DNA of 64,000 bases from Gammaproteobacteria bacterium (GCA_003567475.1 PWZL01000007.1:1-64000); one strand, 5' to 3'. Counted from the stretch's first letter, positions 505 to 61,395 are shown. The notes: a model not told the origin generated them from the letters alone. A program made the numbers and translations.

Positions 505-1452
505 ATGTTTTTGCAGCGCAGCATGGCTTTGATCGTCATCGGTTCGCTGGCACTGGTGGGGTGTATGACCACCGACAGCAGCCGCCAGCAGCAACCGCCG
601 TCGAGCCAGCCTGTACCACAGACTTCCGGCGGCACGCCGTCCTCGGGTTCCCAGGGTAGTCCATCCGTGTCCCAGGTTCCTGGCTCTTCGGGTGACGGCG
701 TGTCGGCCGGTTCTTCTTCTCCTTCGCCCTCGTCTTCGCCGGCATCCAGCGGGTCGCCGGGTGCCGAGTCGGGCGATCGCGCGGGCGCAGGGGGCGCGGC
801 GGGCCGCGACGGGCCAGCAGGCTCGGGCTCAGGGCCTCAGGTCGGCAACCGTGGCACCGGGCCGATGCCCGGTGGCGGTTCATCGGGCTCGGGTCAGCCC
901 GTCGAGGGCGCAGGCGCCCCCGGCGGCGGCGCTGGCGCCGGCCCCGGGAGTGAGGACATCGATTGGGGCGACGCTGGCGTGGCTGGCGGCGGTCGGCCGG
1001 GCAGTGGTCGGGCGGCGGAACTCGATCGCGAGCTCGAGCGTGCCCTGGAAGATTTCGACGGTGAGATCCTGGCGGAGCAGGAGGGCTTGGCGCGCGCCGG
1101 TGGCGGACCGGCGGCCGATGCGGGCCGCCGCACCGGTAGTGGCGAGGAGGCGGGTGGGACCGCCGATGGCGCTGGCAGTGGACCCCGGGTAATCTCCGGC
1201 AACGTGTTTGGTGACGATGATGGCGCCGAGGGCAGTGCCGCCCGCGGCGGGATGGGTGGGCGTGGTCCCATGCACCCGGGGCTGAGCGACGAGGAAGTCG
1301 CCGCACGCACGCCGGATGACATCGGCGACGGAGGCGACGATGACATCGTCGCCCGTCAGCTTCGAGAAGCAGCCATCAATGAATCCGATCCTGAGTTGCG
1401 GGAGAAACTCTGGGAGGAGTACCGCGATTACCGCGCCAGCATCGGGCGCTGA
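505..1452 (+). CDS. Low-complexity lipoprotein, first gene of cluster A
   Basis: The start ATG 505 was chosen because it follows an AGGAGG-type ribosome site (about 487-493) and opens a lipoprotein signal with lipobox LALVGC; the open frame extends further upstream without signal features. The mature protein (~315 aa precursor) begins with ~200 residues rich in Ser, Gly, Pro and Gln, likely a disordered tether. It then has an acidic region and ends in a charged, probably helical tail, near ELREKLWEEY, which looks like the only conserved part. It should sit in the outer or inner membrane facing the periplasm. Nine bases separate it from the next lipoprotein gene. I do not recognise a named family. 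By position it may be the outer envelope part of the kinase/channel complex encoded downstream. Confidence 0.75.
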   Translation: MFLQRSMALIVIGSLALVGCMTTDSSRQQQPPSSQPVPQTSGGTPSSGSQGSPSVSQVPGSSGDGVSAGSSSPSPSSSPASSGSPGAESGDRAGAGGAAGRDGPAGSGSGPQVGNRGTGPMPGGGSSGSGQPVEGAGAPGGGAGAGPGSEDIDWGDAGVAGGGRPGSGRAAELDRELERALEDFDGEILAEQEGLARAGGGPAADAGRRTGSGEEAGGTADGAGSGPRVISGNVFGDDDGAEGSAARGGMGGRGPMHPGLSDEEVAARTPDDIGDGGDDDIVARQLREAAINESDPELREKLWEEYRDYRASIGR

Positions 1453-1461
1453 GGTGAACAG

Positions 1462-2814
1462 GTGATGCCACGGCGAGACTTCGTGAGCGGGAGGACGGCG
1501 CCGCTGTTGGCCATGCTTGCCGGCGCGTTGCTGGTCTCAGGTTGTGCGACCCAGCAGGTCCACCGCGTGAACACCACACCGCTGGAGCAGGCGAGTGAAA
1601 TGCTGCCCGATGAGGCCCTGCTGGATGTCGGCATCGTCGTGTTCGATACCGGTATCCCCACGGATGATCCCACCGTCGACGTCCCTGGCGCCTTCCCGCG
1701 CCTGCGCGAGGCCGAAGCGCGGTTTTTCCCCTATCACCTGAAAGACACCCTCCAGGACACAGGCTACTGGGGCGCGGTGCGGGTGGTGCCTGCACCATCG
1801 AACAGCTCCGAGTTGCTGGTCTACGGCCTGATCAACCAGTCCGATGGCGACATGCTGGATCTGCACATCCGCGCCCAGGACGCGACCGGGCGCGAGTGGC
1901 TCAACCGGCGGTACCGCGAGCGCATCGCCGCGGCCGCCTACCGGGGCAGCGCCGATCCCTACCAGGACGTGTTCAACAAGATTGCCAACGACCTCGTCGC
2001 GGCGCGTCGGGGTCTCGAGCAGGCGGAGCTTGCGCGAGTGCGTCAGGTGGCGAAGCTGCGTTTCGCCGCCGAGCTGACCCCGGAAGCCTTCGGTGACTAT
2101 GTGGTTCAGAACCGCCGCGGTGTCTACGAGATCCGCCGACTGCCGGCCGAGGATGACCCGATGATGCGGCGGGCCATGCAGATCCGCCAGCGTGAGCACA
2201 TGTTCATCGACACGCTTGATGGTTACTACGGCAGCTTCTACCACGAAGTCGGTGAGGACTACGATCGCTGGCGCCAGTTCGCGCGCGACGAGGCCGAAGC
2301 GGTCCGCGAGTTGCGCTCTTCGGCGCGCTGGCGTACCGGGCTTGGCATCGCCGCGATCGTCGGGGCGGTGATGATCGACAGCAACAGCGGCAGCCGTGGC
2401 TATGGCCAGCGGGTGCTCAGAGACGTCGCGGTGTACGGTGGTATCGAGGCGATCCGCAGCGGTGCCCAGAAGCGTCGGGAGGCGGCCTTCCATGAGGCCG
2501 CCATGCAGGAGGTCACCGAAGCCTTCCAGGGCGCCGTACGTCCCATCCTGATCGACATGCAGGGCGAGACCGTGCGCCTGACGGGCTCGGCGGAAGCGCA
2601 GTACACCGAATGGCAGCGGTTGATGCGTGAGATCTACGCTGCCGAGACCGGGTTCATCGACGACATCGACATCTACTCCGAAGCGCTCCCGGAGACCGAA
2701 CAGCTGCCCTCGGTCGAACCGATACTTCTCGAGGAGCTTAACGGGGCGCAGTCCCGTCATGATGACGGCCCGGCGCACGCCGACGCCACTTCGTCCCCCG
2801 CCGGCAGCGGCTGA
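1462..2814 (+). CDS. Lipoprotein with glycine-rich segment, cluster A
   Basis: A basic N-terminus and hydrophobic stretch end at lipobox LLVSGC, so this is an exported lipoprotein of ~450 aa. GTG 1462 and ATG 1465 are both possible starts; a GAGGTGAAC stretch just upstream serves either. The mature part has a mixed alpha/beta N-terminal half (residues ~55-170), a charged helical middle, and a hydrophobic stretch at ~290-310 with many Gly and Ala that could touch a membrane. A long helical segment follows. No named domain is recognised. It lies between lipoprotein 1 and the kinase with short spacers (9 and 15 bp), so it is almost certainly co-transcribed. An envelope scaffold role for the cluster A complex is an inference from position only. 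Confidence 0.75.
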   Translation: MMPRRDFVSGRTAPLLAMLAGALLVSGCATQQVHRVNTTPLEQASEMLPDEALLDVGIVVFDTGIPTDDPTVDVPGAFPRLREAEARFFPYHLKDTLQDTGYWGAVRVVPAPSNSSELLVYGLINQSDGDMLDLHIRAQDATGREWLNRRYRERIAAAAYRGSADPYQDVFNKIANDLVAARRGLEQAELARVRQVAKLRFAAELTPEAFGDYVVQNRRGVYEIRRLPAEDDPMMRRAMQIRQREHMFIDTLDGYYGSFYHEVGEDYDRWRQFARDEAEAVRELRSSARWRTGLGIAAIVGAVMIDSNSGSRGYGQRVLRDVAVYGGIEAIRSGAQKRREAAFHEAAMQEVTEAFQGAVRPILIDMQGETVRLTGSAEAQYTEWQRLMREIYAAETGFIDDIDIYSEALPETEQLPSVEPILLEELNGAQSRHDDGPAHADATSSPAGSG

Positions 2815-2829
2815 GGCCGCGCCAGAACC

Positions 2830-5301
2830 GTGCCCGGGTGGCTGCCCGGTGCCCGCCTTGCCGACGGGCGCTTCGTGCTGGTGCGAGAGCTGGGGCGCGG
2901 CGGTCTCGGCGCCGTCTGGCTTGCCCAGGATACGTCCACCGATACCCGCGTCGCCCTGAAAATCCTCGCGCCGGCGTTCGCCCGGCATCCGGGGGCGCGG
3001 GAACTGCTGCGTCGCGAGTACCAACGCCAGCATGCGCTGGTCCACCCGCACATCCTCCGCGTCCACGCCCTGCTCGACAGCGATGACACCCAGCTGCTGG
3101 TCATGCAGCATGCGCCAGGGGGCGACGTGCGCCACCTGCGCGGCGCCCCCTGGCGTCGGCTGCTCCCGTTGCTCGTGCAGGTGGCCGACGCGCTGGCCCA
3201 TGCCCACGACGCAGGCGTCGTGCATCGCGACCTCAAGGCAGCGAACGTGCTGCTCGACGAGAACGGGCGGGCCTGTGTGGCCGACTTCGGTCATGCCGCC
3301 CCGGCGGCGGGAGGCGCGGGCGAGGTGCCCGAGGGCGGGGGTACGGCCGCGACCATGAGCCCGCAGCAGCTCGAGGGGGCCGCGCCCAGTCCTGCTGATG
3401 ATCTCTACGCCTTCGGTGCACTGTGTTACGAACTGCTTTCGGGGGGCTTGCCGCTCGGTGACGCACCGGATCCGGCGACGGTGCGGGTGCGCGTGCCGCC
3501 ATCACTGGGTGCGCAGGCGCCGGGGCTGCCTGAGCGCCTGGTCGCGCTGGTGGATAGCCTGCTGGCCAAGTCCCCGGCAGCGCGACCCGCGTCGATGGTG
3601 ATCGTCCGCGATCGCCTGGAGGCGCTCGGACAGGCCGCCATCGAGACTTCAGCCGCGGCGCCCGCGGGCCGGTCGGCCGCCGCTGCCCGAGCGGCCGGGG
3701 AGGACGGGGACGACGAAGCCCTTGCGATCGCCCCCGTGACACCGCGTCGCCGGCGCAGAGGCCAGCCCGGCGGTGTGGCGGCAGGGGTCGGGAGTGGCCC
3801 CGGCCCGCCGGAGGACGCGTCCGGGCCCGCGGGCGGGTCATCTGGCGGGATGCGCCGAAGGGGGCGCGTGGCCGCGGCGCCGCAACTGCCGGGCGGCCCG
3901 GCCGCCTGGACCGCCGCGGCATTCATCGTGCTGATCAGTCTATTGCTGTTCACAGTGATCTGGCTGCCGCGGCTCGGTGCGCCGGGCGAGCTGCCGGCCG
4001 AAGCGTCGCTGGCCGAGGACGCCATGCCTGGCGTGTCCGCGCCCGGGCCCGGGCGCGAGCCGCCACCCGCCGGGCGTCGCGAGGATGCCGAAGCCGTGCT
4101 GGGGGTGCTGGTCAATCTGCAGAACCGGCTGACCCCGCTGGAACCGACGCGCTGGGCGGGTGAGGACTGGAGCCGCGCTACCGAGCTCGGCGAGCGCGGT
4201 GATGACCTGTTGCTGGCACGACGCTTCAACGATGCCGAGGCCGCTTACAGCGAGGCCCTGTCGGTGTTGCAGGCCATCGAGGCGGCCCTCCCGGAGGTCT
4301 TCGACGCGGCGATGACCCGCGGTGGTGAAGCGCTTGCGGCAGGCCGCCAGGCCGCGGCGCAGGCGGCGTTCGAAGAGGCCGTGCGGCTGCGGCCTGACGA
4401 TGCGGCCGCAGGCGCCGCACTGGCCCGCGCCGAAGCTCTGGATGCGGTGCTCGAGGCCATGCAGCGCGGTGCGCGGGCCGAGCACGACGGCGCCCTCGAT
4501 ACCGCCCGCGCCGCCTATGCCGAGGCGCTCGAGCTCGACGGACAGTGGACGCCGGCCCGCGAGGCACTGGCGCGCGTCCGCCGCACCCAGGCCGATGCCG
4601 GCTTTCAGGCCTTGTTGTCGCGGGGCTACGGCTTCATCGGCAATGAGCGTTATCGCGAAGCGATCGAGGCCTTCGAAGAGGCGTTGGCGGTTCGGCCGGA
4701 TGCTGCCGATGCACGCGAGGGCCTGGTGCAGGCGCAGCTCGGGTTCCGGCTCCAGCGGATCGGTCTTGCGCAGCTGCGAGCGACCGCGTTCGAGCGCCAG
4801 GAGCGCTGGGAGGAGGCGTTGGCGCAGTACCGCGAGGCTCTCGAGATCGACGAGAGCCTCGGTTTCGCGCGCGAGGGCCGTGCACGTGCCGAAGCTCGCG
4901 CCTCGCTGGAGGCCAAGCTCGAGGCACTGAACGCTGCGCCGGGCAGGCTGTTCGACGATCGGGTGCTCGCCGAGGCCGAGGCGGTGCTCAGCGAGGCGCG
5001 CGAGACCTTCGACGACGCCGGGGGACGACGCCTGGCGACGCAGATCGAACGTCTCGCCAGGCTGATTGAGCTGGCCACCACCCCGGTCGACGTCGTGCTG
5101 CGCTCCGATGGTCTCACGGAGGTGCGGGTGTTTCGTGTGGGCCCGATCGGACGCTTCGAGGAGACGACGTTGCAATTGCGGCCGGGCGATTACACGATCA
5201 TCGGCAGTCGCGATGGCTTTCGCGACGTTCGCGTGACTCTGGCGGTGCGTCCCGGACAAGCTCCGGCGCCGCTCAGCGTCATCTGCACGGAACCGATCTG
5301 A
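2830..5301 (+). CDS. Membrane Ser/Thr protein kinase with TPR region
   Basis: An 823-aa Hanks-type kinase starting at GTG 2830. It has the Gly-rich loop GRGGLGAV (~22-29), Lys44, Glu63, HRDLKAAN with Asp134 and Asn139, and DFG with Asp152. The usual SPEQ motif reads SPQQ (~177-180), so the APE-type Glu is replaced by Gln; the rest suggests an active enzyme. A Pro/Ala/Gly/Arg-rich linker leads to one transmembrane helix (~358-380). The ~430 residues beyond are TPR-like helical repeats, and the C-terminus is a small beta domain. With the kinase domain cytoplasmic, the TPR part is periplasmic. A likely phosphothreonine reader, the FHA protein, is encoded at 8926-10308 in the same operon. The architecture recalls PpkA-type kinases of the type VI threonine-phosphorylation pathway, but no secretion genes are nearby. 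Confidence 0.92.
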   Translation: MPGWLPGARLADGRFVLVRELGRGGLGAVWLAQDTSTDTRVALKILAPAFARHPGARELLRREYQRQHALVHPHILRVHALLDSDDTQLLVMQHAPGGDVRHLRGAPWRRLLPLLVQVADALAHAHDAGVVHRDLKAANVLLDENGRACVADFGHAAPAAGGAGEVPEGGGTAATMSPQQLEGAAPSPADDLYAFGALCYELLSGGLPLGDAPDPATVRVRVPPSLGAQAPGLPERLVALVDSLLAKSPAARPASMVIVRDRLEALGQAAIETSAAAPAGRSAAAARAAGEDGDDEALAIAPVTPRRRRRGQPGGVAAGVGSGPGPPEDASGPAGGSSGGMRRRGRVAAAPQLPGGPAAWTAAAFIVLISLLLFTVIWLPRLGAPGELPAEASLAEDAMPGVSAPGPGREPPPAGRREDAEAVLGVLVNLQNRLTPLEPTRWAGEDWSRATELGERGDDLLLARRFNDAEAAYSEALSVLQAIEAALPEVFDAAMTRGGEALAAGRQAAAQAAFEEAVRLRPDDAAAGAALARAEALDAVLEAMQRGARAEHDGALDTARAAYAEALELDGQWTPAREALARVRRTQADAGFQALLSRGYGFIGNERYREAIEAFEEALAVRPDAADAREGLVQAQLGFRLQRIGLAQLRATAFERQERWEEALAQYREALEIDESLGFAREGRARAEARASLEAKLEALNAAPGRLFDDRVLAEAEAVLSEARETFDDAGGRRLATQIERLARLIELATTPVDVVLRSDGLTEVRVFRVGPIGRFEETTLQLRPGDYTIIGSRDGFRDVRVTLAVRPGQAPAPLSVICTEPI

Positions 5302-5329
5302 GCGCGCCGCGGGCGCGCTGGATGACGAC

Positions 5330-7798
5330 ATGGACGAACACGGTGGACAGGATACCCTGCTGAGCCTCGACGATGCCGGGCATCGTCAGGGTGCTGCAGC
5401 CGAGGAGCTCCCGGCGCTGATTGGCGGCGGACCCGATGACCTGCTGCGCGTCGCCGGCTGGCCGGCCGGCATTCTGCAGGTCGGGCGCCTGGAGGGTCGG
5501 TTCTTCGTCTCGCCAACCCGCAAGGACCTGCTCGAATGCAACGCTGAGCCGCTGCGCGAGACGCGCTGGCTGCAGGAGGGTGACGTGATCAGCGGTCCGG
5601 GTCGACAGCTGCGGTGCAGTGTTGCCGACGACCGCCTGCGCCTGGTCAGCCAGGGGACCGGCAGTGCCGGTGATACCCTGCCGCCGGATCTCGACGCGCT
5701 GGCCGCCCAGGCGGTGGAGACTGCCGGCGCCCCTGCCCCCGCCGGCCCGCGGCCCGAAACCATTGCCGCGGCCGAGTACCGGCGCCGCCGGCCGGCGCCG
5801 GTCACGCCGGGGCGGCGCCGGCCGGGACCGCTGGCGATCGTGCTCTGGAGCGGTCTTGCGGTGCTGCTGGTGCTCGGCTGGTTCGCGTTCACGGCGAAGT
5901 CGGTGCGCCTGGTGATCGAGCCTGAGCCCGAACTGGTGACGCTGCCGGGCACGCTGCTGAAATTTCGGATCGGCGAACGCTGGTTGCTGCGCAGCGGCGA
6001 GCATCGCGTGCTGGCCGAGCGTGAGGGCTACCGGCGTCTCGAGCAGGTGATCGAAGTTGGCGCGCAGCCCGACCAGCAGCTGCGGCTGCGGCTCGAGCGT
6101 CTGCCGGGACGGATCACCCTGTTGACCGAGCCGGCCGTCGAGGGCCGGGTGCTGATCGACGATGAGCCGGCCGGGACGCTGCCGCTGCGTGACCGCGACG
6201 TCGCGCATGGCGAGCGACGCTTCCGCGTCGAGGCGCCGCGGTTCCTGCCGGCCGAAGCGGTGCTGGACGTGGAGGGTGGCGGTGTGGCGCAGACGCTCGC
6301 CCTCGAGCTGGTGCCGAACTGGGCACTGGTCAGCGTGAGCAGCCGGCCCGCCGGGGCGGTCATCAGCATCGACGGGGAGGCGGTCGGTGAGACACCGGCG
6401 ACGCTGGAGCTCGAGGCGGGCGAGCGGCGGGTCGAGCTGACGCTTGCCGGCCACAATGCCTGGCGTGACACGCTGAGCGTGCGTCCTGACGAGCCTCTGG
6501 CGCTGGAGACGGTGGTCCTGCAGCAGGCCGACGGTCGGGTGCAGCTGGTCAGTCGGCCGGCTGGGGCACGGGTCACCGTCAATGGCCAATACCAGGGTCA
6601 GACGCCACTGACGGTGACCCTACGCCCGGCGCGCGAGCACGAGGTGGTGTTCGCATTGCCTGGCTATCGCAACGAGCGCCGTGCACTCTCGGTGCAGGCC
6701 GACAGCGGTCGCCGTCTCGAGCTCGAACTCGAACCCCTGTTCGGTGAGGTGCGTCTCGAGGTCGTCCCGGCCGAGGCCGAGGTGGTGGTCGACGGGCGGT
6801 CGCTCGGCACTGACCGCGTGCTGACCCTGCAGGCGGTGCCACAGACGCTGGAGATCCGCCACCCGGGCTATGCGTCCCAGCGGCTCGAAGTCACGCCCCG
6901 GCCCGGGTTTCCCCAGGAGATCGAGGTCAGCCTGCTGACCGAGGCGGCGGCCCGCGAGGCGGCGATTCCGCGCAGCATCGAGACCGCTCTCGGTGGCGAG
7001 CTGCGACTGCTGGATGTCGGGGCGTTCACGATGGGCACGCCGCGGGGTGAGCAGGGGCGGCGCAGCAACGAGGCGCAGCGCCAGGTGGAGCTCACGCGTC
7101 GTTTCTACCTGGGGGTGCACGAGGTGACCAACGCCGAGTTCCGGGCCTTCCGTGACTCGCATGACTCCGGACGCTTCGGCGGTCAGTCGCTCAATGGTGA
7201 CCGTCAGCCCGTGGTGAATGTGAGCTGGGAGGACGCCGTGGCCTTCCTCAACTGGCTGAGCGCGCGTGACGGACTGGAGCCGGCGTATGTGCGCCAGGAC
7301 GGGCGCTGGGGACTCAGCGATCCGGTGACCACGGGCTATCGCCTGCCGACCGAAGCGGAGTGGGCATGGGCCGCCCGGCATCTCTCTCGCGCGCAGCCGG
7401 TACGCTTCAGCTGGGGCGATGATCTGCCCCCGCCGGACCGCGCCGCCAACCTGGCCGATGTGTCAGCCGCCCAGCTGTTGCCCACGACGCTGGTGACCTA
7501 TAACGACGGCTTCCCAGTCAGCGCCCCGGTCGGCAGTTTCGCCGCCAATCCGGCGGGGATTCATGATCTCGGCGGCAACGTCGCCGAATGGGTGCACGAT
7601 CTCTACGCCATCGTGCCCCCGGCTGACGGGGGCCGCCGCGTACAAGATCCGCTGGGGCCGACCACCGGGCGTTTCCGTGTGGTGCGCGGGGCGAGCTGGC
7701 GCCATGCCAGCATCACGGAACTGCGGTTGGGCTACAGGGACTATAGTGATCGGGCCCGGGACGACCTGGGCTTCCGCATTGCGAGGTATCTCGAATGA
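5330..7798 (+). CDS. Membrane protein with PEGA repeats and SUMF1/FGE-like domain
   Basis: An 822-aa protein. Residues 1-110 are beta-rich and contain LQEGDVI, reminiscent of the late strands of an FHA fold, but the phosphopeptide-binding core is absent, so this part is tentative. One transmembrane helix lies at ~164-188. The periplasmic part holds three or more PEGA-type repeats (~260-540, e.g. SRPAGAVISIDGEAVG and SRPAGARVTVNGQYQG). A complete SUMF1/FGE-sulfatase fold follows from ~555 to the end (MGTPRGEQG, RLPTEAEWAWAA, GGNVAEWVHD, final GFRIA). The paired cysteines of true formylglycine-generating enzyme are missing: the strand reads RGASWRHAS. It is therefore probably a binding module like TagR of type VI threonine-phosphorylation systems, not a sulfatase activator. 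Its stop overlaps the next start (ATGA). Confidence 0.88.
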   Translation: MDEHGGQDTLLSLDDAGHRQGAAAEELPALIGGGPDDLLRVAGWPAGILQVGRLEGRFFVSPTRKDLLECNAEPLRETRWLQEGDVISGPGRQLRCSVADDRLRLVSQGTGSAGDTLPPDLDALAAQAVETAGAPAPAGPRPETIAAAEYRRRRPAPVTPGRRRPGPLAIVLWSGLAVLLVLGWFAFTAKSVRLVIEPEPELVTLPGTLLKFRIGERWLLRSGEHRVLAEREGYRRLEQVIEVGAQPDQQLRLRLERLPGRITLLTEPAVEGRVLIDDEPAGTLPLRDRDVAHGERRFRVEAPRFLPAEAVLDVEGGGVAQTLALELVPNWALVSVSSRPAGAVISIDGEAVGETPATLELEAGERRVELTLAGHNAWRDTLSVRPDEPLALETVVLQQADGRVQLVSRPAGARVTVNGQYQGQTPLTVTLRPAREHEVVFALPGYRNERRALSVQADSGRRLELELEPLFGEVRLEVVPAEAEVVVDGRSLGTDRVLTLQAVPQTLEIRHPGYASQRLEVTPRPGFPQEIEVSLLTEAAAREAAIPRSIETALGGELRLLDVGAFTMGTPRGEQGRRSNEAQRQVELTRRFYLGVHEVTNAEFRAFRDSHDSGRFGGQSLNGDRQPVVNVSWEDAVAFLNWLSARDGLEPAYVRQDGRWGLSDPVTTGYRLPTEAEWAWAARHLSRAQPVRFSWGDDLPPPDRAANLADVSAAQLLPTTLVTYNDGFPVSAPVGSFAANPAGIHDLGGNVAEWVHDLYAIVPPADGGRRVQDPLGPTTGRFRVVRGASWRHASITELRLGYRDYSDRARDDLGFRIARYLE

Positions 7799-8085
7799 CA
7801 CGCATCGTCATCGGCACCGCCGCTGCTGCTCTCGTCGGCCTGGGTCTGCTGTGGATTGCGGTGGCCCCGGGTGCGCATGCCCAGGCCCAGGCCCAGGCCC
7901 AGGCCAGCGAAGAGGCGCCTGCCCCGCCAGCGGTGGGCGAGGAGACCGAGGGTGAGCGCGAGGTGGCGGAGCGCCCGCCCGAAGCGCCCGCCGAGCCGCC
8001 GCCGGCCGGCGCCTCCGGCGACCAGTTCACCCCGACCGAACGCCTGCGCCACGACCAGGAAGTCGACTTCCCGGTCGACATCTGA
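7795..8085 (+). CDS. Small exported acidic protein, cluster A
   Basis: A 96-aa protein whose start overlaps the preceding stop (ATGA), so translation is probably coupled. A Sec-type signal peptide (hydrophobic ~8-25, cleavage after AHA) is followed by QAQAQAQA encoded by a hexanucleotide repeat, then a Glu/Pro/Ala-rich disordered linker. The C-terminal FTPTERLRHDQEVDFPVDI looks like a conserved peptide and may be the functional part. It has no catalytic motif. It is placed directly before the MotA/TolQ subunit. I infer a periplasmic accessory or linker peptide of the channel complex; no family name is recognised. Confidence 0.7.
   Translation: MTRIVIGTAAAALVGLGLLWIAVAPGAHAQAQAQAQASEEAPAPPAVGEETEGEREVAERPPEAPAEPPPAGASGDQFTPTERLRHDQEVDFPVDI
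7879..7907 (+). repeat. Hexanucleotide tandem repeat (GCCCAG x4)
   Basis: Four perfect GCCCAG copies plus a partial fifth (GCCAG) lie just after the signal-peptide codons of the small gene at 7795. Because the unit is six bases, copy-number change would only lengthen or shorten the Gln-Ala tract and could not switch the frame. Confidence 0.85.
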
Positions 8086-8115
8086 GGCCCAGATCCAGTC
8101 AGCCCGAGGTACGCC

Positions 8116-8913
8116 ATGAAGCGCCGTTTCCCCGTCGAATTCGTCTACCAGGTGTTCGCGCTGATCATCGTGATCATCGTGGTGCACGCGATCTACGTGA
8201 CCTACGTCCGGCCCACCGCCTTCGCAGTGCTGGAAGCGCAGGAGATCAGCATGGCGCAGGATCCCTTCTACATTCCCGAGCGCTCGCTGGTCGTGCTGAT
8301 CCGGGACTTCGAGCAGCAGGCCTGTTTCATCCTGATGTTCTGGGCGTTCGCCATCATGGGTTTCAAGGCGGTGACCACGCTGCGCGAGCGTGCGCTGCTC
8401 GATCGCGATCTGGTCAACGTCCCGGAAGGGTTGAGGATCCTGCCCGAGGACACGCGCGAGTACGCGCGCAACCTCCAAGGACTGCCCGAGCGCCAGCGAC
8501 AGCTATTCCTGCCGCGGGTGCTGCTCGCCTCGCTGGAGCGTTTCGGATCCTCCCGCAATGTCCAGGACGTCGCGTCGGCGGCCCGTGATGCCTGTGATTC
8601 CGAGGCCGAGCGCATGGAGTCGGAACTCTCGATGATCCGCTACATCGCCTGGGCGATTCCCTCGGTAGGCTTTATTGGCACGGTGCGCGGTATCGGTGAA
8701 GCCCTGGCCCAGGCCCACCTGGCCGTGGAAGGGGATATCAGCGGTGTCACCCAGAGCCTGGGTGTGGCCTTCAACTCGACCTTCATCGCACTTCTGATCA
8801 GCATTGTGGTGATGTTCCTCGTCCACCAGCTGCAGCTGTTGCAGGAACGGCTGGTGTTCGATGCCCAGACGTACGTGGACCACAATCTCGTGCGCCACAT
8901 GAAGGCGGCCTGA
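8116..8913 (+). CDS. MotA/TolQ/ExbB-family proton channel subunit, cluster A
   Basis: A 265-aa integral membrane protein with four hydrophobic segments (about 10-30, 65-85, 175-195 and 215-240), more MotA-like in count than the three of TolQ/ExbB. The third and fourth carry the family signature: PSVGFIGTVRGIG and a polar NST within the last helix (VAFNSTFIALL). The large loop between helices 2 and 3 would be cytoplasmic. Family members form the pentameric stator that conducts protons and drives an ExbD/TolR/MotB partner. No orthodox partner gene is in this operon; the two vWA proteins downstream carry an Asp in an N-terminal membrane helix and are candidates. It sits between the small periplasmic protein and the FHA protein with spacers of 30 and 12 bp. 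Confidence 0.88.
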   Translation: MKRRFPVEFVYQVFALIIVIIVVHAIYVTYVRPTAFAVLEAQEISMAQDPFYIPERSLVVLIRDFEQQACFILMFWAFAIMGFKAVTTLRERALLDRDLVNVPEGLRILPEDTREYARNLQGLPERQRQLFLPRVLLASLERFGSSRNVQDVASAARDACDSEAERMESELSMIRYIAWAIPSVGFIGTVRGIGEALAQAHLAVEGDISGVTQSLGVAFNSTFIALLISIVVMFLVHQLQLLQERLVFDAQTYVDHNLVRHMKAA

Positions 8914-8925
8914 CGGACGCCCGCC

Positions 8926-10308
8926 ATGACGGCGCTCGCGCTGGAAATCGCCGGTGACGGACTGACCCTGCTGAGAGAGGGTGGAGCGGTCGTGCGCGAG
9001 CCCGCCTATGCGCTGCTGGAGGGTGCTGCGGTGATCACCGGCGAGCCGGCACGGCGCCAGTACCGGATCCGGCCGCGGCATGTGCAGCGCCGGTTCTGGG
9101 ACCAGTTGGGCGAAGACGAAATTCCCGGCACCGGGCTCACCCAGGCCGATCTTGCGCATGCTCAGCTGGAGGCCGCCTGGGAGATCCATGGCGACGGTGT
9201 GGAGGCGGTCTATCTGGTGGTTCCGGACGGTTACACCCGGGACCAGCTCGGGCTGGTGCTGGGGCTTGCGCAGGAGTGCGGACTGCCCGTGGCGGGACTC
9301 GTCCCCACGGCACTTGCGGCGAGCACACGTGCGGAGCCGGATCGCCAGCGCCTCCACCTCGACGCCGGGCTTGGGCATTTCACGGTCACTGAAATCGTCA
9401 TCGGCGAGCGGCTGCGCTGGCTGCGTCAACAGCGGCTCGACAGCGTCGGCCTGGACAGCTTGCGTGATCGCTGGATCCGGTTGATCGGAGAGGGCTTTCT
9501 GACCAGCACGCGGTTCGATCCTCTGCACGATGCGCAGAGCGAGCAGGCCCTGTTCGAGGCCTTGCCCGGCTGGCTTGCCGCGGTGCGTGAGGGGCCGGTC
9601 AGGCTGACGCTCGAGTACCAGGACAAGCGCTTCGAGACACAGCTCGAAGCCACCGCCTTCACCACCAGTGTCGAACGCGCCTATCGGGCGCTCCAGCAGC
9701 TGGTGGCCGCGCTGCGTGAGCCCGGCCAGCCACTCACCTTGCAGCTGGGCGAGCGGGCCGCCTTGCTCCCGGGGCTGGCCGCAGCGCTGGCCCGACTCGG
9801 GGAGACGCGGGTCGTCCCGCTGCCGCCGGGGTACGCTGCCGCCGGGGCGCTGGCACGGCGCACGATGTTCGCGCGCGGCGAGGGCGCAACGACCGTGCTG
9901 ACCCGGAGCCTGCCGGTGCTCGAGCCTGGCGATGCTCTCGCGCTCCAGGCGCCAGTTGTGGAGGCCGTGCCGAGGCCTGCCAGCGAGGCCGCCGGCGGCA
10001 TGCGTGCGACGCACGTGGTCTGGCGCGGGGTGGCCCATCCGCTCACCGGCGATGCCCTGACCATCGGCACCGCCGTCGACGATGCGCCATCCGCCCGGGG
10101 TCTGGCTCTGCCGGAGGACAGCGCGGGGGTGTCGTCACGCCACTGCGAACTGCGGCTGCTCGAGGATGGGGCGCTGTTGACCGACCTCAGCCGCTACGGA
10201 ACCTTCATCAACGGGTGTCGCGCCGGCACCGAGACCCGGGTGCAGCCCGGTGACGTGATCCGCGTGGGCACGCAAGGTGAGGAATTGCTGATGATCAGGC
10301 TGGCCTGA
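8926..10308 (+). CDS. Degenerate actin/Hsp70-fold protein with C-terminal FHA domain
   Basis: A 460-aa soluble protein. Residues ~1-320 read like an ASKHA (actin/Hsp70) fold: LHLDAGLGHFTVTEI near residue 145 matches the phosphate-2 strand of Hsp70, whereas the first phosphate motif (ALEIAGDGLTLL) has lost the DxGT residues, so ATP hydrolysis is doubtful. The last ~100 residues form an FHA domain with the phosphothreonine-binding GVSSRHCEL (~401-409) and YGTFINGCR. FHA domains bind pThr peptides, so the kinase encoded at 2830-5301 is the natural writer. It is cytoplasmic by sequence and could dock on the kinase, or on phosphorylated tails of the channel proteins. The FHA part is certain; the ASKHA part is moderately sure. 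Confidence 0.85.
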   Translation: MTALALEIAGDGLTLLREGGAVVREPAYALLEGAAVITGEPARRQYRIRPRHVQRRFWDQLGEDEIPGTGLTQADLAHAQLEAAWEIHGDGVEAVYLVVPDGYTRDQLGLVLGLAQECGLPVAGLVPTALAASTRAEPDRQRLHLDAGLGHFTVTEIVIGERLRWLRQQRLDSVGLDSLRDRWIRLIGEGFLTSTRFDPLHDAQSEQALFEALPGWLAAVREGPVRLTLEYQDKRFETQLEATAFTTSVERAYRALQQLVAALREPGQPLTLQLGERAALLPGLAAALARLGETRVVPLPPGYAAAGALARRTMFARGEGATTVLTRSLPVLEPGDALALQAPVVEAVPRPASEAAGGMRATHVVWRGVAHPLTGDALTIGTAVDDAPSARGLALPEDSAGVSSRHCELRLLEDGALLTDLSRYGTFINGCRAGTETRVQPGDVIRVGTQGEELLMIRLA

Positions 10309-10310
10309 AC

Positions 10311-11414
10311 ATGGCCCGTCGCAAGCGCCGCGCCTTCAACGTCTTCAACCTGTCCTTTCTGGACATCATGAGCTGTGGTTTCGGCGCGGTGATCCTGTTT
10401 TTCATGATCATCAGCGCGCAGATCTCGCTGGACAACCAGGAGCGCCTCAAAGAGAGCATCTCCGAGGTCGAGCGGCTCGAGGCGCGGGTGAGTGCCGGGG
10501 AACGCCAGCTGGCGTCCCTGCGCGAGTCGGTGAGCGAAAGTCTCACGGAGCGGGCGGCCACCGGCGCGATGGCCGAAGAGCTGGCCGCCGCGGTGCGTGA
10601 GGCACGCGCGCGGCTGACGGATCGCGAACGCCTGGCGATGATGCGCCGCGAGGAAATCGAGCGGCTGCAGGCCGAGTTACAGGAACTCGAAGCCGAGTCC
10701 GAGCGCCTGGCGCGTGAGAGCGTGACGACCGAGGACGCCGGGCGTCAGATTCGCGCCGTACGCGGCGAGGGGGAGCGGGCCTACCTCACCGGTATGCGCA
10801 TGGGTGGCGAGCGGGTACTGATCCTGGTCGACGTCTCGGCCAGCATGCTCGACACCACCATCGTCAACGTGATCCGCCGCCGCAACATGCCGTTCGAGCG
10901 CAAGGTCACGGCGGCGAAGTGGCAACGGATCATGGCGACGGTCGACTGGTTGTCGGCGCAGATTCCCGAGGACAGTGAGTTCCAGATCTACCTGTTCAAC
11001 ACGCGTGCCTGGCCGCTGGTCGAGGGCAGTGACCGGCAGTGGCTGTCGGCCTCTGCCGATGTGGGGCGGCTGGACGAGGCCATCCGGCTGCTGCGGGAGG
11101 TGGATCCGGGGGACGGCAGCAGCCTGCACCGTGCCTTCGAGGTGGTGCGCGAGATGAACCCGCGCCCCGACAACGTCTACCTGATCACCGACAGCCTGCC
11201 GACGCAGGGAGCGACGGCGCCGGCACGCCGCACGGTAAGCGGCGCGGAGCGTGCGCGGCACTTCGAGCGTGCCCTCCGGATCCTGCCCACCAACGTACCG
11301 ATCAACGTCATCCTGTTTCCGCTGGAGGGGGATCCGCGCGCCGCGCCCAATTACTGGGAGCTCACGCTACGGACCGGCGGGACCTTCATGGCACCGACCG
11401 AGGACTGGCCATGA
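10311..11414 (+). CDS. Membrane-anchored vWA-domain protein 1, cluster A
   Basis: A 367-aa protein starting two bases after the FHA gene. A short basic N-terminus (MARRKRR) precedes a membrane helix containing LSFLDIMSCGFGAVI with Asp18 and Cys21. A long coiled coil follows (~45-145). A von Willebrand factor A domain starts near residue 168, with the MIDAS motif DVSAS at 174-178 and later GDGSS and TDSLP loops. By the positive-inside rule the vWA domain is periplasmic. The helix position and Asp resemble ExbD/TolR/MotB anchors, suggesting partnership with the MotA/TolQ subunit at 8116. vWA domains bind protein ligands through a metal ion. Its stop overlaps the start of the second vWA gene. 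Confidence 0.88.
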   Translation: MARRKRRAFNVFNLSFLDIMSCGFGAVILFFMIISAQISLDNQERLKESISEVERLEARVSAGERQLASLRESVSESLTERAATGAMAEELAAAVREARARLTDRERLAMMRREEIERLQAELQELEAESERLARESVTTEDAGRQIRAVRGEGERAYLTGMRMGGERVLILVDVSASMLDTTIVNVIRRRNMPFERKVTAAKWQRIMATVDWLSAQIPEDSEFQIYLFNTRAWPLVEGSDRQWLSASADVGRLDEAIRLLREVDPGDGSSLHRAFEVVREMNPRPDNVYLITDSLPTQGATAPARRTVSGAERARHFERALRILPTNVPINVILFPLEGDPRAAPNYWELTLRTGGTFMAPTEDWP

Positions 11415-12424
11415 GACGACGCCGCAGACGCGATACCGACACACTCAGCCTGTCGTTTCTCGATGCGATCTGCTGCGGCTTCGGGGCGATCATCCTGCTG
11501 ATCGTGATCACCAAGATCTTCGAACCCAGACTGCGCGAGGCGACCACCGATGACGTCGAGGCGCGTCTGACGTTCCTCAACCAGAGGCTCGAGGACATTG
11601 CCATCGACAGCGAGCGGGCCGCCGATCGCTTGAGTATCACCGAGGCCGAACTCGCCCGCGAGCGCCAGCGCATCGAGACACTCCGCCGCGAGCTCGCGCG
11701 GATCGAGTCCAGCCAGGCCGATGCCACCGATGCCGCAAGAATCGCCGAGGAACTCGAAGGGCGGCTGAACCGTGCGCGTCAGCGCCTGACCGAGGAGATG
11801 CAGCGACTGCTCGCAGATTTCCGTCGGCGCCCTGAAGACTCGCCGGTCGGAGGTATCCCCATCGACAGCGAGTACATCATCTTCGTCATCGATACCTCGC
11901 CGAGCATGACCGAATACACGTGGCCGCGGATGATGCGGATCATGGAGGAGATCCTCGACACCTACCCGGAGGTGAGAGGCATGCAGGTGATGAACGATAT
12001 GGGGACTTACCTGTTCACCCGCTACGCTGGCGAGTGGATTGCCGATACGCCAGCGCTGAGGCGCGCGGTGATGGACGGGCTACGCGGCTGGCGGCCGTTT
12101 TCGAACTCGAGCCCTGTCGAGGGGGTATCGCGCGCGGTACAGACTTTCGCGACCCGCCAGCACGGGGTGAGCATCTATTACCTTGGCGATGAAATGCACG
12201 GACACAATCTGCATCAGGCCGCCGAGCAGATTCGCCGTGCCAACATGGGGCCGGACGGGCAGCCGATGGCGCGCATTCACTCGATCGGTTTCCCGGTGAT
12301 CTACGACTACACCGGCAGTGTTCAGGCGACTGGGCTGCGCTTCGCTGTGCTGATGCGCATCGTCACCGAGCAGAACAACGGAACGTTCGTCGCCCTGCAC
12401 AGCGGTCGCGGGCGCGATCGCTAG
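11411..12424 (+). CDS. Membrane-anchored vWA-domain protein 2, cluster A
   Basis: A 337-aa protein translated from ATG 11411, which overlaps the preceding TGA. It is a diverged paralogue of protein 1: a basic start (MRRRRRR), the same helix LSLSFLDAICCGFGAIILL with Asp18, a coiled coil (~45-130), and a vWA domain with MIDAS DTSPS at 161-165. The reading frame stays open upstream inside gene 10311, but that part is out of family. It ends the operon; no T-rich terminator is seen before the convergent gene at 12466. Conservation of Asp at residue 18 in both copies supports a role in proton coupling with the channel subunit, which remains an inference. Confidence 0.88.
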   Translation: MRRRRRRDTDTLSLSFLDAICCGFGAIILLIVITKIFEPRLREATTDDVEARLTFLNQRLEDIAIDSERAADRLSITEAELARERQRIETLRRELARIESSQADATDAARIAEELEGRLNRARQRLTEEMQRLLADFRRRPEDSPVGGIPIDSEYIIFVIDTSPSMTEYTWPRMMRIMEEILDTYPEVRGMQVMNDMGTYLFTRYAGEWIADTPALRRAVMDGLRGWRPFSNSSPVEGVSRAVQTFATRQHGVSIYYLGDEMHGHNLHQAAEQIRRANMGPDGQPMARIHSIGFPVIYDYTGSVQATGLRFAVLMRIVTEQNNGTFVALHSGRGRDR

Positions 12425-14876: not shown

Positions 14877-14987
14877 CGCCATAGTTCGTCATGATTCGTC
14901 TGCCAGAGCGCTGATTTCATCCTGTCGGCAGCATCGCCGGGAGTTGCAATGGATCCCGCACACATCGTGCGTATGGAGGATCCCGAC

Positions 14988-15722
14988 ATGAACACAGCAC
15001 GCACTCTCATCACCACCCTGGTCCTCGGCGGCCTGGCCGCTGGACCTGCCCTGGCAGATACCGACTCCCTGCCGCGGGCGAGCAAGCAGGAGTCGATCGG
15101 CATCGGCAGCGGACTCGTGGTCGGTGCGCTTGCCGCGGGGCCAGTCGGCGCCATCCTCGGGGCGGCCACTGGCGCCTTGCTGGGTGATCGCCTGCACCGC
15201 GACCACACGACGATGACGGGGCTCGAGTCCGCACTGGCCGAAGCGCGGACCCGCGAGGGCCATCTCGATGCGCGCGTCGCGGCGTTGAGCGACGAGCTCG
15301 GTGTCCGCGAACGCATGCTGCATGATCTCGAGCAGACCACCGCACGGATTGGCGAATCGGTGCAGTTCAGTGTGCCGTTTCGCACCAGCGAGGCCAGCCT
15401 GCCGCCCGAGGTGGTGAATCGGCTGGCCAGGCTAGGCCGGGTGCTCGTCGAACTCGGTGACGTCGAGATCCAGGTCGAGGGGCACGCCGATGCGCGTGGC
15501 GAGGACCGCGTGAATCTCGCGCTGTCGGCGGCCCGCGCTGAGACCGTGCGGGCCGTGCTGCTGGACGCCGGATTGGCCAGTGAGCAGGTCCACACGATTG
15601 CGCACGGCTCGACTGAAGCGCGGGCCGATGCGGATGATCCTGACGGCCTGGCTTTCGATCGCCGTGTCGACATCCAGCTGGTGCTGAATACGCAAACCGG
15701 CCGATTTGCGCGGCGCGATTAA
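14988..15722 (+). CDS. OmpA-family periplasmic/outer-membrane protein
   Basis: ATG 14988 has GGAGGA seven bases upstream and starts a Sec signal (cleavage after ALA). The 244-aa protein has a Gly-rich glycine-zipper segment (~45-75, SGLVVGALAAGPVGAILGAA), a short coiled coil (~85-125), and a C-terminal OmpA/MotB peptidoglycan-binding domain (~140-235). The latter contains VEGHADARGEDRVNLALSAARA, whose conserved Asp and Arg contact diaminopimelate. The arrangement resembles sortase-associated PdsO proteins, but no sortase gene is visible, so I only call it OmpA-like. It stands alone between a rhomboid gene and a convergent gene. Confidence 0.88.
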   Translation: MNTARTLITTLVLGGLAAGPALADTDSLPRASKQESIGIGSGLVVGALAAGPVGAILGAATGALLGDRLHRDHTTMTGLESALAEARTREGHLDARVAALSDELGVRERMLHDLEQTTARIGESVQFSVPFRTSEASLPPEVVNRLARLGRVLVELGDVEIQVEGHADARGEDRVNLALSAARAETVRAVLLDAGLASEQVHTIAHGSTEARADADDPDGLAFDRRVDIQLVLNTQTGRFARRD

Positions 15723-58712: not shown

Positions 58713-59399
58713 ATGGACATGTACGCAAGCGTAGTGCGCTTCTTCCAGGATGGCGGGGTGTTCATGTACCCCATCGTCCTGGTGCTGGCGCTGGGAGTGG
58801 CCATCGCCATCGAGCGTTGGTTGTATCTGCAGTCGACCGAAAGCCGGAACCGGGCCTTGTGGAAGCGCATCGCGCCCCAGCTGCAGGCAGGTAATTTCCA
58901 GGCTGCGGCCCAGGAGGCCGGAAAGTCGAAAGCGGCGGTAGGTAACGTGCTGAGCTATGGCTTCGCCCGCATCCGTTCGGCCGGTCGGCGCGATGACATC
59001 GAGAAGGCGATGGAAGAGAGTCTGATGGAGGTGATGCCGCGGCTGGAAAAGCGCACGCACTATCTCGCGACCTTCGCCAACGTCGCCACACTGCTCGGTC
59101 TGCTGGGTACCATCATCGGCCTGATCCGGGCATTTACGGCAGTGGCCGGTGCCAACCCCGCCGACAAGGCCGACCTGCTTTCGGCGAGCATCTCGGTGGC
59201 GATGAACACCACGGCCTTCGGTCTGATGGCGGCGATTCCGATGCTGCTGATGCACACGCTGCTGCAGACCAAGACCTCGGAGATCATCGACGGTCTCGAG
59301 ATGGCGTCGGTGAAGTTTCTCAACGCCATTACCGAGCGACGCGATCCTGCCCCGCAGCCGGGTAAGGCTCAGGTCAAGGCGCAGGCGGCCGCAGCATGA
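58713..59399 (+). CDS. MotA/TolQ/ExbB proton channel protein, cluster B
   Basis: A 228-aa three-helix protein: helix 1 (~15-33), then the cytoplasmic domain, helices 2 and 3 with the signature LATFANVATLLGLLGTIIGLI and AMNTTAFGLMAAIPMLLM. This is the classical ExbB/TolQ/AglR arrangement and size. It forms a proton-conducting pentamer with the two ExbD-like proteins next to it. The spacer to the preceding gene is 24 bp with GGAGGAG; the stop overlaps the next start (ATGA). Confidence 0.95.
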   Translation: MDMYASVVRFFQDGGVFMYPIVLVLALGVAIAIERWLYLQSTESRNRALWKRIAPQLQAGNFQAAAQEAGKSKAAVGNVLSYGFARIRSAGRRDDIEKAMEESLMEVMPRLEKRTHYLATFANVATLLGLLGTIIGLIRAFTAVAGANPADKADLLSASISVAMNTTAFGLMAAIPMLLMHTLLQTKTSEIIDGLEMASVKFLNAITERRDPAPQPGKAQVKAQAAAA

Positions 59400-59920
59400 A
59401 ATCCCGCCGCCTTCGGGCACGGCGATCGAAGGATCCCGCCGAGCTCAACATCACGGCCTTCATGAACCTGATGGTGGTGCTGGTACCGTTCCTGCTGATC
59501 ACCGCGGTGTTCTCCCGCCTGGCGGTGCTCGAGCTGAACCTGCCTGCCCCGGGCGAAGGCGGCGAAGACGACGACCAGCCCGCGCTCGCGCTGGAGGTCA
59601 CGGTGCGCGACGATCGGCTGGAACTGGGCGATCGCAATCGCGGCTCGCTGGTGGTCATCACCCGCGAGGACGATGACCGCGCCGCACTTATCGAGCTGTC
59701 CGAGCGCCTGCAGGATCTCAAGGCCCAACATCCGGAGACCCTGGGCGCGACGCTGCTGCTCGAGCCTGATATCCACTACGACCTGCTCGTGCAGGTCATG
59801 GATGCCGTGCGGGTGGTTGAGCACGCGGCCAACGGTGAGCTGGAGCAGCTTGAGCTGTTCCCGGACATCTCGATCGGCGATGCCCCGGTGCTGGCGGCGG
59901 CCGAGGGGACAGGACGATGA
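59396..59920 (+). CDS. ExbD/TolR-family protein 1, membrane Asp replaced by Asn
   Basis: A 174-aa protein with a basic N-terminus, one helix (~23-45) and a periplasmic ExbD domain. The helix reads NITAFMNLMVVLVPFLLI: the usual proton-accepting Asp (PFIDVML in ExbD) is Asn here. It therefore probably cannot relay protons and may be a structural partner of the second ExbD. The overlap with ExbB and with the next gene indicates co-translation. Confidence 0.9.
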   Translation: MKSRRLRARRSKDPAELNITAFMNLMVVLVPFLLITAVFSRLAVLELNLPAPGEGGEDDDQPALALEVTVRDDRLELGDRNRGSLVVITREDDDRAALIELSERLQDLKAQHPETLGATLLLEPDIHYDLLVQVMDAVRVVEHAANGELEQLELFPDISIGDAPVLAAAEGTGR

Positions 59921-60423
59921 GCGATCGCGTCACGCGCATGCAGCGCCACCACGACCGACACCGCAAGGGGGGCGGACTGAACCTCGTGTCCCTCATGGAT
60001 ATTTTCACCATCCTGGTGTTTTTCCTGCTGGTGAATTCGACCGAGGTCGAGACCTTGCCGAGCGATCGGGATCTCACGCTGCCCGACTCCGTCTCGCGGG
60101 AACTGCCACGGGAGACCGTCGTGGTCGCAGTGACTATGGATGACATCCTGGTACAGGGCCGGCGGGTCGCTTCGGTGGCCGAGATCCTGGCCGAAGAAGG
60201 CGGGACGGTGATCGAGCCACTGGCCGAAGCGCTGCGTGCGCAGCATGCCCGCGCCTTGCGCGAGAGCGACGACGGTGCCGAAGTCACGATCATGGGCGAT
60301 CGCGAACTGCCTTATCGACTGCTACGCCGGATCATGGCGACCTGCACCGAGGCCGACTACACGCGTCTGTCACTTGCCGTGAACCAGCGGGTGACCGAGC
60401 CGCAGGTGGCGCAGCTGCGCTGA
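59917..60423 (+). CDS. ExbD/TolR-family protein 2 with intact Asp
   Basis: A 168-aa protein starting in the ATGA overlap. Its helix reads LNLVSLMDIFTILVFFLLV and keeps the Asp. A periplasmic domain follows (VVVAVTMDDILVQGRRVA). In the pairing with protein 1 it would be the proton-coupled member, comparable to AglS/AglR-type arrangements that use two ExbD-like proteins. It ends 12 bp before the AgmX/TonB-like gene. Confidence 0.93.
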   Translation: MSDRVTRMQRHHDRHRKGGGLNLVSLMDIFTILVFFLLVNSTEVETLPSDRDLTLPDSVSRELPRETVVVAVTMDDILVQGRRVASVAEILAEEGGTVIEPLAEALRAQHARALRESDDGAEVTIMGDRELPYRLLRRIMATCTEADYTRLSLAVNQRVTEPQVAQLR

Positions 60424-60435
60424 CGGAGGACGATC

Positions 60436-61395
60436 ATGACCGCTGTGGCTGCAAGCAATCCCTACTACCGGAGTTTCGAACTGCCGGGAAGCACCGGTGG
60501 CGAACAGGACCATCGCTTCCGCCGGCTCACCTGGAAGGTGCTGCTGGTGCTGCTGGTGTTCTCGCTGGTGATGCCGTGGCTGCCGGTGCCCGAGCGCGCT
60601 GCTGATCGTGCCGAGGAAATCCCGCCGCGATTGGCGCGTTTCGTCCTCGAGCGCGAGCCACCACCGCCGCCGCCGGTCGTCCGAGAGGAGCCTCGCCCGG
60701 TTGAGCCGGAAGTCGCAGTGGTCGAGCCGACGCGCGAGACGCCGCCACCCGAGCCTATGCCGCAGCCGCGTCCGGAGGCGCGTGTCGAGGAAGCCCGCGA
60801 GCGCGCCGCGACCGCGGGCGTCATGCCCATGGCCGCCGAACTGGCGGCGCTGCGCGAGAGTGCCGCCCTGGCGAGCGTCCTGGAGGCGAACACCGTCTCC
60901 AGCGCGGCCCAGGCCTCGCGCGCCGAGCGGGCGCTGATCACCTCACGCGCCGGTCAGGCGTCGAGCGGTATCACGACCGCCGAGCTCAGTCGCGGCACCG
61001 GTGGTGGTGGACTGGCGGAACGTACCGCCACCACCGTGGACTCGCCGGTCGCCGGCCTCGTCGCCGAGGAGACCGACCGGCGCGGCGGCGGCAGCGACGG
61101 TGTCGGTTCGCGCAGTCGCGAAGAAATCGAGATGGTCTTCGACCAGCACAAGGGCGCGATCTATGCACTCTACAGCCGCGCCCTGCGCAGTGATCCGACG
61201 CTGCAGGGGAAGGTGGTGCTGCGGCTGACCATCGCACCGAACGGCGCGGTCACCGAGTGTGAGGTCGTCTCCAGCGAGCTTGGCGACGCCGAGCTCGAAC
61301 GCCGGCTGGTCCAGCGGGTGATGATGTTCCGTTTCGAGGACCGGGAGGTTGCGCCCGTGACGACGACCAAGCCGATCGAGTTCTTCCCGGCGTAG
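60436..61395 (+). CDS. AgmX/PglI C-terminal domain protein (TonB-like transducer)
   Basis: A 319-aa protein with one N-terminal membrane helix (~34-52), a Pro/Glu-rich linker (~60-115; EREPPPPPPVVREEPRP), a helical Ala-rich part (~115-190), and a C-terminal domain (~225-319) with LQGKVVLRLTIAPNGAV and FRFEDREVAPVTTTKPIEF. The layout is TonB-like: energy taken from ExbB/ExbD and passed across the periplasm. The C-terminal domain is that of AgmX/PglI of Myxococcus gliding. It ends cluster B. Confidence 0.9.
   Translation: MTAVAASNPYYRSFELPGSTGGEQDHRFRRLTWKVLLVLLVFSLVMPWLPVPERAADRAEEIPPRLARFVLEREPPPPPPVVREEPRPVEPEVAVVEPTRETPPPEPMPQPRPEARVEEARERAATAGVMPMAAELAALRESAALASVLEANTVSSAAQASRAERALITSRAGQASSGITTAELSRGTGGGGLAERTATTVDSPVAGLVAEETDRRGGGSDGVGSRSREEIEMVFDQHKGAIYALYSRALRSDPTLQGKVVLRLTIAPNGAVTECEVVSSELGDAELERRLVQRVMMFRFEDREVAPVTTTKPIEFFPA

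Follow-up and report, generated by a model that had tools for sequence, protein, structure and literature searches.

MotA/TolQ/ExbB-type motors drive flagella, nutrient uptake, division, gliding and phage defence, and the 5:2 complexes studied so far work mechanically. On the basis of AlphaFold3 models and gene neighbourhoods, a 2025 study (PMC12204202) put forward a class of such motors with transpore helix-vWA proteins. Here the place of TolR within a TolQ-like pentamer is taken by a vWA heterodimer, and force transduction has been argued for these motors; in a term search of that paper (Mol Biol Evol 2025) kinase, PEGA, FHA domain and phosphorylation went unmentioned. A second point of reference is the type VI secretion system (T6SS) of Agrobacterium, where the kinase PpkA, the phosphothreonine pThr14 in the cytoplasmic N-terminus of the membrane protein TssL and the docking of Fha have been proven (PMC3953482).

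The window analyzed here is a stretch of 64,000 nt from a Gammaproteobacteria bacterium (GCA_003567475.1, PWZL01000007.1:1-64000). Reading of open reading frames together with Pfam matches placed nine genes at positions 505-12424, all of them, with the features described within them, on the plus strand. The intergenic spacing ranged from -4 to +30 nt across the whole cluster, and the tight packing and the gene contents listed in an earlier note on this DNA were all recovered. The genes flanking the cluster (AcrB, PALP, amine oxidase, GDT1) were mostly unrelated to it. We read the cluster as a proton-driven vWA motor with a phosphothreonine switch at Thr116 of the gene-4 product that is read by the FHA domain of gene 7, and give this reading a probability of roughly 0.6. 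That it is a proton-driven, vWA-headed rotary motor under the control of its own three-gene phosphothreonine circuit, whose parts come and go together in evolution, we regard as a little better than an even bet.

Genes 1, 2 and 5 had no Pfam match. Gene 1 (505-1452) encodes a low-complexity, Gly/Ser-rich lipoprotein with the lipobox SLALVGC and a C-terminal helical motif that was kept across loci. The second lipoprotein is encoded by gene 2 (1462-2814), which starts with GTG at 1462 or ATG at 1465; the lipobox Cys28 was among its 36 invariant residues, and it had no sequence match in the PDB either. An AlphaFold-type model of this protein (pLDDT 75) showed an alpha/beta domain followed by a long coiled coil, and its fold matches to HP0492, LptE and TolB were weak and not trustworthy. 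Gene 3 (2830-5301) encodes a Ser/Thr kinase (Pkinase, 1.4e-31, with the HRD and DFG motifs intact) that is connected by a transmembrane segment to a periplasmic TPR part; comparison of the loci showed that the kinase domain (2875-3606) is an optional part across relatives. The product of gene 5 (7795-8085) is a small secreted protein with the aligned C-terminal motif F-x-P-[ST]-E...FP-x-DI.

Gene 4 (5330-7798) combines a cytoplasmic FHA-like domain and a Thr-containing tail with a transmembrane segment, PEGA repeats (7.7e-40) and an FGE/SUMF1-fold domain (FGE-sulfatase, 1.1e-39). The N-terminal profile matched FHA domains (Ki-67, 3.4e-5). The FGE domain encoded in the window has no Cys, and 102 of the 103 complete loci encode at most one Cys in the FGE domain; because the catalytic Cys pair is missing, the domain is not a formylglycine-generating enzyme and an active enzyme of this kind was ruled out. 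Its best score was to the GldK model (5e-27, below the cut-off). The gliding and T9SS machinery GldKLM-GldJ likewise has a 5:2 motor beside an FGE-fold envelope protein; in contrast to it, the present cluster has no GldL or GldM, its FGE fold is part of an inner-membrane PEGA protein, and the Gld systems belong to other phyla. Gene 7 (8926-10308) encodes an Hsp70/actin-fold domain with a C-terminal FHA domain (10003-10275; Pfam FHA, 3e-10). The actin fold proposed earlier was borne out by an AlphaFold model (pLDDT 89), whose best PDB matches were Hsp70 nucleotide-binding domains (Ssz1, E ~1e-16 to 1e-17). ATP hydrolysis may be absent from this domain.

Gene 6 (8116-8913) encodes a MotA/TolQ/ExbB-type motor subunit (MotA_ExbB, 1.8e-15), and its TolQ-type threonines were conserved almost without exception (Thr189 in 103/103 and Thr222 in 102/103 loci). 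Genes 8 (vWA-1, 10311-11414) and 9 (vWA-2, 11411-12424) encode paralogous partners of the same architecture, a transpore-type helix with Asp18, a coiled coil and a vWA domain with the MIDAS motif DxSxS, although the Pfam matches to vWA were weak (6e-5 and 0.011). At the N-terminus of both proteins a short run of basic residues precedes a single hydrophobic helix, which contains the motif FLDxxxCGFGA. In this ExbD/TolR/MotB-type helix the Asp was invariant (vWA-1, 103/103; vWA-2, 101/101 loci), and the metal sites were intact in every locus (103/103 for vWA-1). No exbD, tolR or motB gene was found in the cluster, by Pfam and open reading frames in the window and by profile order in the relatives. 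As both vWA proteins carry an ExbD/TolR-type helix with an invariant Asp, they are motor subunits, and gene 6 together with the two vWA proteins is predicted from these features to form a 5:2 proton motor with vWA heads. The earlier note had listed the vWA proteins beside a channel protein; they are not accessory but are predicted to be the rotor-dimer subunits of the class described in PMC12204202. It had also overlooked their transpore helices, the FHA-like domain and T-x-P-P motif of gene 4, and the OmpA-family gene that trails the cluster in many relatives.

The motor class itself is not new, having already been predicted in 2025 (PMC12204202). The present cluster shares with the TPH-vWA/TolQ-like motors (Fig. 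4c-d of that paper) a TolQ-like gene next to a heterologous pair of vWA genes, an Asp-bearing transpore helix, the lack of tolR/exbD and a predicted role in force transduction; the likeness to this class, which includes an Idiomarina family, was assessed by gene linkage and motor features. It differs by seven further conserved genes and by the triad of kinase, T-x-P-P motif and FHA domain. With ExbBD-TonB, TolQR-TolA and MotAB it has in common the MotA/ExbB-type subunit with conserved Thr and the partner helix with Asp, but here the partner is a vWA heterodimer with neither an ExbD/TolR fold nor an OmpA-type domain, and TonB and TolA are missing. What is new is the predicted three-gene phospho-switch (kinase, T-x-P-P threonine and FHA reader) on a vWA motor. 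If the prediction is true, phosphothreonine gating would be known for the first time in the MotA/TolQ/ExbB motor superfamily, and the cluster would specify a new trans-envelope machine.

Among the first 20 relatives, wherever the kinase domain was missing or degenerate, the FHA pocket of gene 7 was so too, and gene 4 lacked T-x-P-P in its cytoplasmic tail. The comparison was extended to 103 complete, non-identical loci, 83 of which lay outside the 20 in which the pattern had been found. An active kinase, an intact gene-7 FHA domain and the gene-4 T-x-P-P were all present in 59 of the 103, and all three were missing from 35; the remaining 9 were mixed, a count tied to the FHA threshold of 60 bits. 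For the 83 additional loci the association of the kinase with the FHA domain ([[44,0],[6,33]], p=2e-17) and with the Thr ([[43,1],[4,35]], p=9e-18) was just as strong, in tests that ignore relatedness. To control for relatedness, the three motor proteins were used to build a tree, in which kinase activity differed in 10 independent contrasts. The FHA domain was concordant with the kinase in 6-7 of these and the Thr in 6-8, with 0 discordant for either (sign test, p ~0.016 and 0.008-0.03, respectively), so that the relatedness-corrected signal consists of only 6-8 informative contrasts. In a hypothesis-blind scan of 727 conserved columns from ten protein alignments, the catalytic residues of the kinase and the pocket residues of the FHA domain ranked at the top, and the T, P and P of gene 4 were the top three kinase-associated columns outside these two domains. 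The Pfam FHA model, which is independent of the profile used for the FHA calls, matched gene 7 in 21/21 kinase-bearing and 6/35 kinase-less proteins.

Kinase, conserved Thr and FHA reader thus appear to have been gained or lost together in many lineages, pointing to a phosphorylation switch. Eight of the nine pseudokinase loci, in which the catalytic Asp was lost (HGN, HGT, HGG or HRS), were without both the FHA domain and T-x-P-P, which favours loss of the triad over a late gain. One clade had the Thr replaced in place with its flanks kept (AGDTAPPDLEELA to RESGAASPDLEELA). All three elements were lacking even in two loci close to the window (L121 and L122; vWA-1 66-68% identical). The mixed loci include L087, L136, L152 and L180, as well as L065, L131 and L133, which look like recent losses in progress, and L073, where kinase and FHA domain were present and T-x-P-P was missing; in L087 a kinase encoded elsewhere may be in use. 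The triad-less loci, about a third of the complete ones, keep the motor, TPR, PEGA-FGE and lipoprotein genes. Judged by gene content, the kinase, the FHA domain and the putative target Thr are an optional triad and not the core of the machine, and because the motor persists without them, its basic job is independent of the switch. Of the self-contained, phosphorylation-gated and proton-powered envelope machine envisaged in the earlier note, the self-contained module has therefore held up, by its gene order, the absence or remote location of T6SS genes and the invariant motor residues, and phosphorylation as a core function has not.

The predicted phospho-acceptor Thr116 (codon 5675-5677, motif T-L-P-P) was singled out by its invariant column and its association with the kinase. 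T116, P118 and P119 were three of the four invariant columns in this region of gene 4 in kinase-bearing loci, where the mean identity was 33%. In the gene-7 FHA domain, S403 and H406 (S-x-x-H) and N429 of the pThr pocket were invariant in 21 kinase-bearing loci. The pocket Arg, in FHA domains the usual contact to pThr, was not conserved (G-R is G-T in the window and variable in relatives). The FHA-like domain of gene 4 has no S-x-x-H; an intramolecular, GarA-like switch via this fold is possible. The literature on motif specificity of bacterial kinases offered nothing usable. A PppA-type phosphatase was not found beside the kinase in a contig that starts just upstream of gene 1, and PP2C genes were located only on the contigs C66, C32 and C39.

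The switch could also be real but wired differently, with the gene-7 FHA domain binding an autophosphorylated Thr in the kinase linker and T116 serving as a docking or structural motif or being bound by the FHA-like domain of gene 4. In actinobacteria FHA domains commonly bind autophosphorylated kinases, the FHA-like fold sits beside T116, and the kinase linker is too variable and too poorly alignable for the column scan, so that Ser/Thr sites in it could have escaped. We nevertheless consider this wiring unlikely, since in the scan T-P-P came first once the kinase and FHA domains were set aside, the FHA-like domain lacks the pocket motif, and its fold was kept in four loci (L045, L048, L050 and L065) that had lost both the Thr and the kinase.

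Under the preferred reading, with the switch at Thr116, five gene-6 subunits would surround a heterodimer of the gene-8 and gene-9 helices, and proton flux would move two vWA heads that sit on coiled coils in the periplasm. With their metal sites, these heads may pull or turn on the periplasmic TPR part of gene 3 and the PEGA/FGE-fold part of gene 4, and also act on the outer-membrane lipoproteins of genes 1-2 and often on an OmpA-family protein, so that force would reach the outer envelope. On the cytoplasmic side, the gene-3 kinase would phosphorylate Thr116 in the tail of gene 4, and the gene-7 FHA domain would dock on pThr116 and bring the Hsp70-fold protein to the motor, whose activity or assembly it might then switch. 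In this way phosphorylation may gate the proton flow. The predicted switch is resolved to a single residue and is cheap to test. In its wiring, though not in descent, the cluster resembles PpkA-TssL-Fha, in which a kinase likewise acts on a cytoplasmic N-terminal Thr of an inner-membrane protein to which an FHA protein docks (PMC3953482); the present target, reader (Hsp70 fold plus FHA) and machine (a proton motor) are unrelated to those of Agrobacterium, and T6SS genes are missing.

The vWA motor may alternatively be a sensor or ion channel, in which the kinase and the vWA proteins would sense the state of the envelope and proton leakage through the MotA-like protein would serve as the signal. 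The periplasmic TPR part of the kinase suggests a sensory function, and Pfam searches of the window cluster found neither a peptidoglycan-binding domain in the vWA proteins nor a TolA/TonB-type transducer. Yet the motor part persists in lineages without kinase and FHA reader and its job is therefore independent of signalling, and the 5:2 complexes studied act mechanically. Together with the force transduction argued in PMC12204202, this makes a sensor or channel improbable. A control part, similar to PpkA/Fha/TagQRST, of a T6SS encoded elsewhere shares with the cluster the kinase, FHA, FGE-fold (as in TagR), lipoprotein and vWA (as in PpkA) components and the kinase-to-FHA logic (PMC3953482), but it has next to no chance of being correct and is refuted at the genome level, as TssC/VipB was not found by genome search in the window genome or in 46 of the 52 module-bearing genomes and in the remaining six was encoded on a contig separate from the module, the vWA domains sit in motor subunits and not in the kinase, and the module persists without any kinase or FHA domain.

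The window and its closest relatives keep the nine-gene order, as do nearly all of the first 20 loci, drawn from ~16 families. This refutes chance co-location, the alternative that the earlier note had allowed for; gene 5 alone fell below detection in some of these loci. Named contigs with this order came from Woeseiaceae, Halieaceae, Aestuariicella and Acidobacteriota. The closest match to the window genome was the uncultivated gammaproteobacterium MAG DLM2.Bin61 (vWA-1, 97% identical). With vWA-1 as query, matches came from 50 of 59 close relatives; within the order 211 of 311 genomes carried the gene, compared with 31 of 370 sampled from the class, and it was rare across the wider phylum. 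The cluster points to a further branch of MotA/TolQ/ExbB motors that most genomes of one gammaproteobacterial order carry. This order-wide presence argues for a housekeeping or lifestyle role rather than anti-phage defence. PADLOC returned strong matches on the cluster only to generic kinase models and no ZorA-D; Zorya or another defence system was rejected, the LmuB and PbeC matches being weak coiled-coil matches and the order-wide presence speaking against it.

An OmpA-family gene with a glycine-zipper segment (14949-15722, plus strand) lies 2.5 kb downstream of the cluster in the window. Its homologues were found directly 3' of vWA-2, at 30-260 nt and on the same strand, in ~30 of the 103 loci, and the homologue in L143 had a Pfam OmpA match; the protein is a likely tenth component. 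The vWA motors thereby gain defined partner genes (TPR, PEGA-FGE, two lipoproteins and often OmpA) that offer a route to their job in the envelope.

Several further observations were made on the loci. Two genomes (G011:C132 and G024:C9) carried a second, divergent vWA-1/vWA-2 pair (33-34% identical), and the module has therefore been duplicated. In the order variants L107, L108, L121 and L122, all without kinase and FHA domain, the MotA-like gene was located behind vWA-2 or the Hsp70-fold gene upstream. A further protein-kinase reading frame was present just upstream of gene 1 in L052, L053, L070, L072 and L078, which are loci of family f6. The cluster was also carried by a contig labelled Klebsiella pneumoniae (CAMAXE010000004, L168), probably a mislabelled metagenome bin. 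The window itself contains a second motor cluster at 58713-61395, with an ExbB-like gene, two overlapping ExbD-like genes (59396-59920 and 59917-60423) and a Pro-rich, TonB/AgmX-like gene; the ExbB-like gene was compared with profiles, and the others were read from the sequence.
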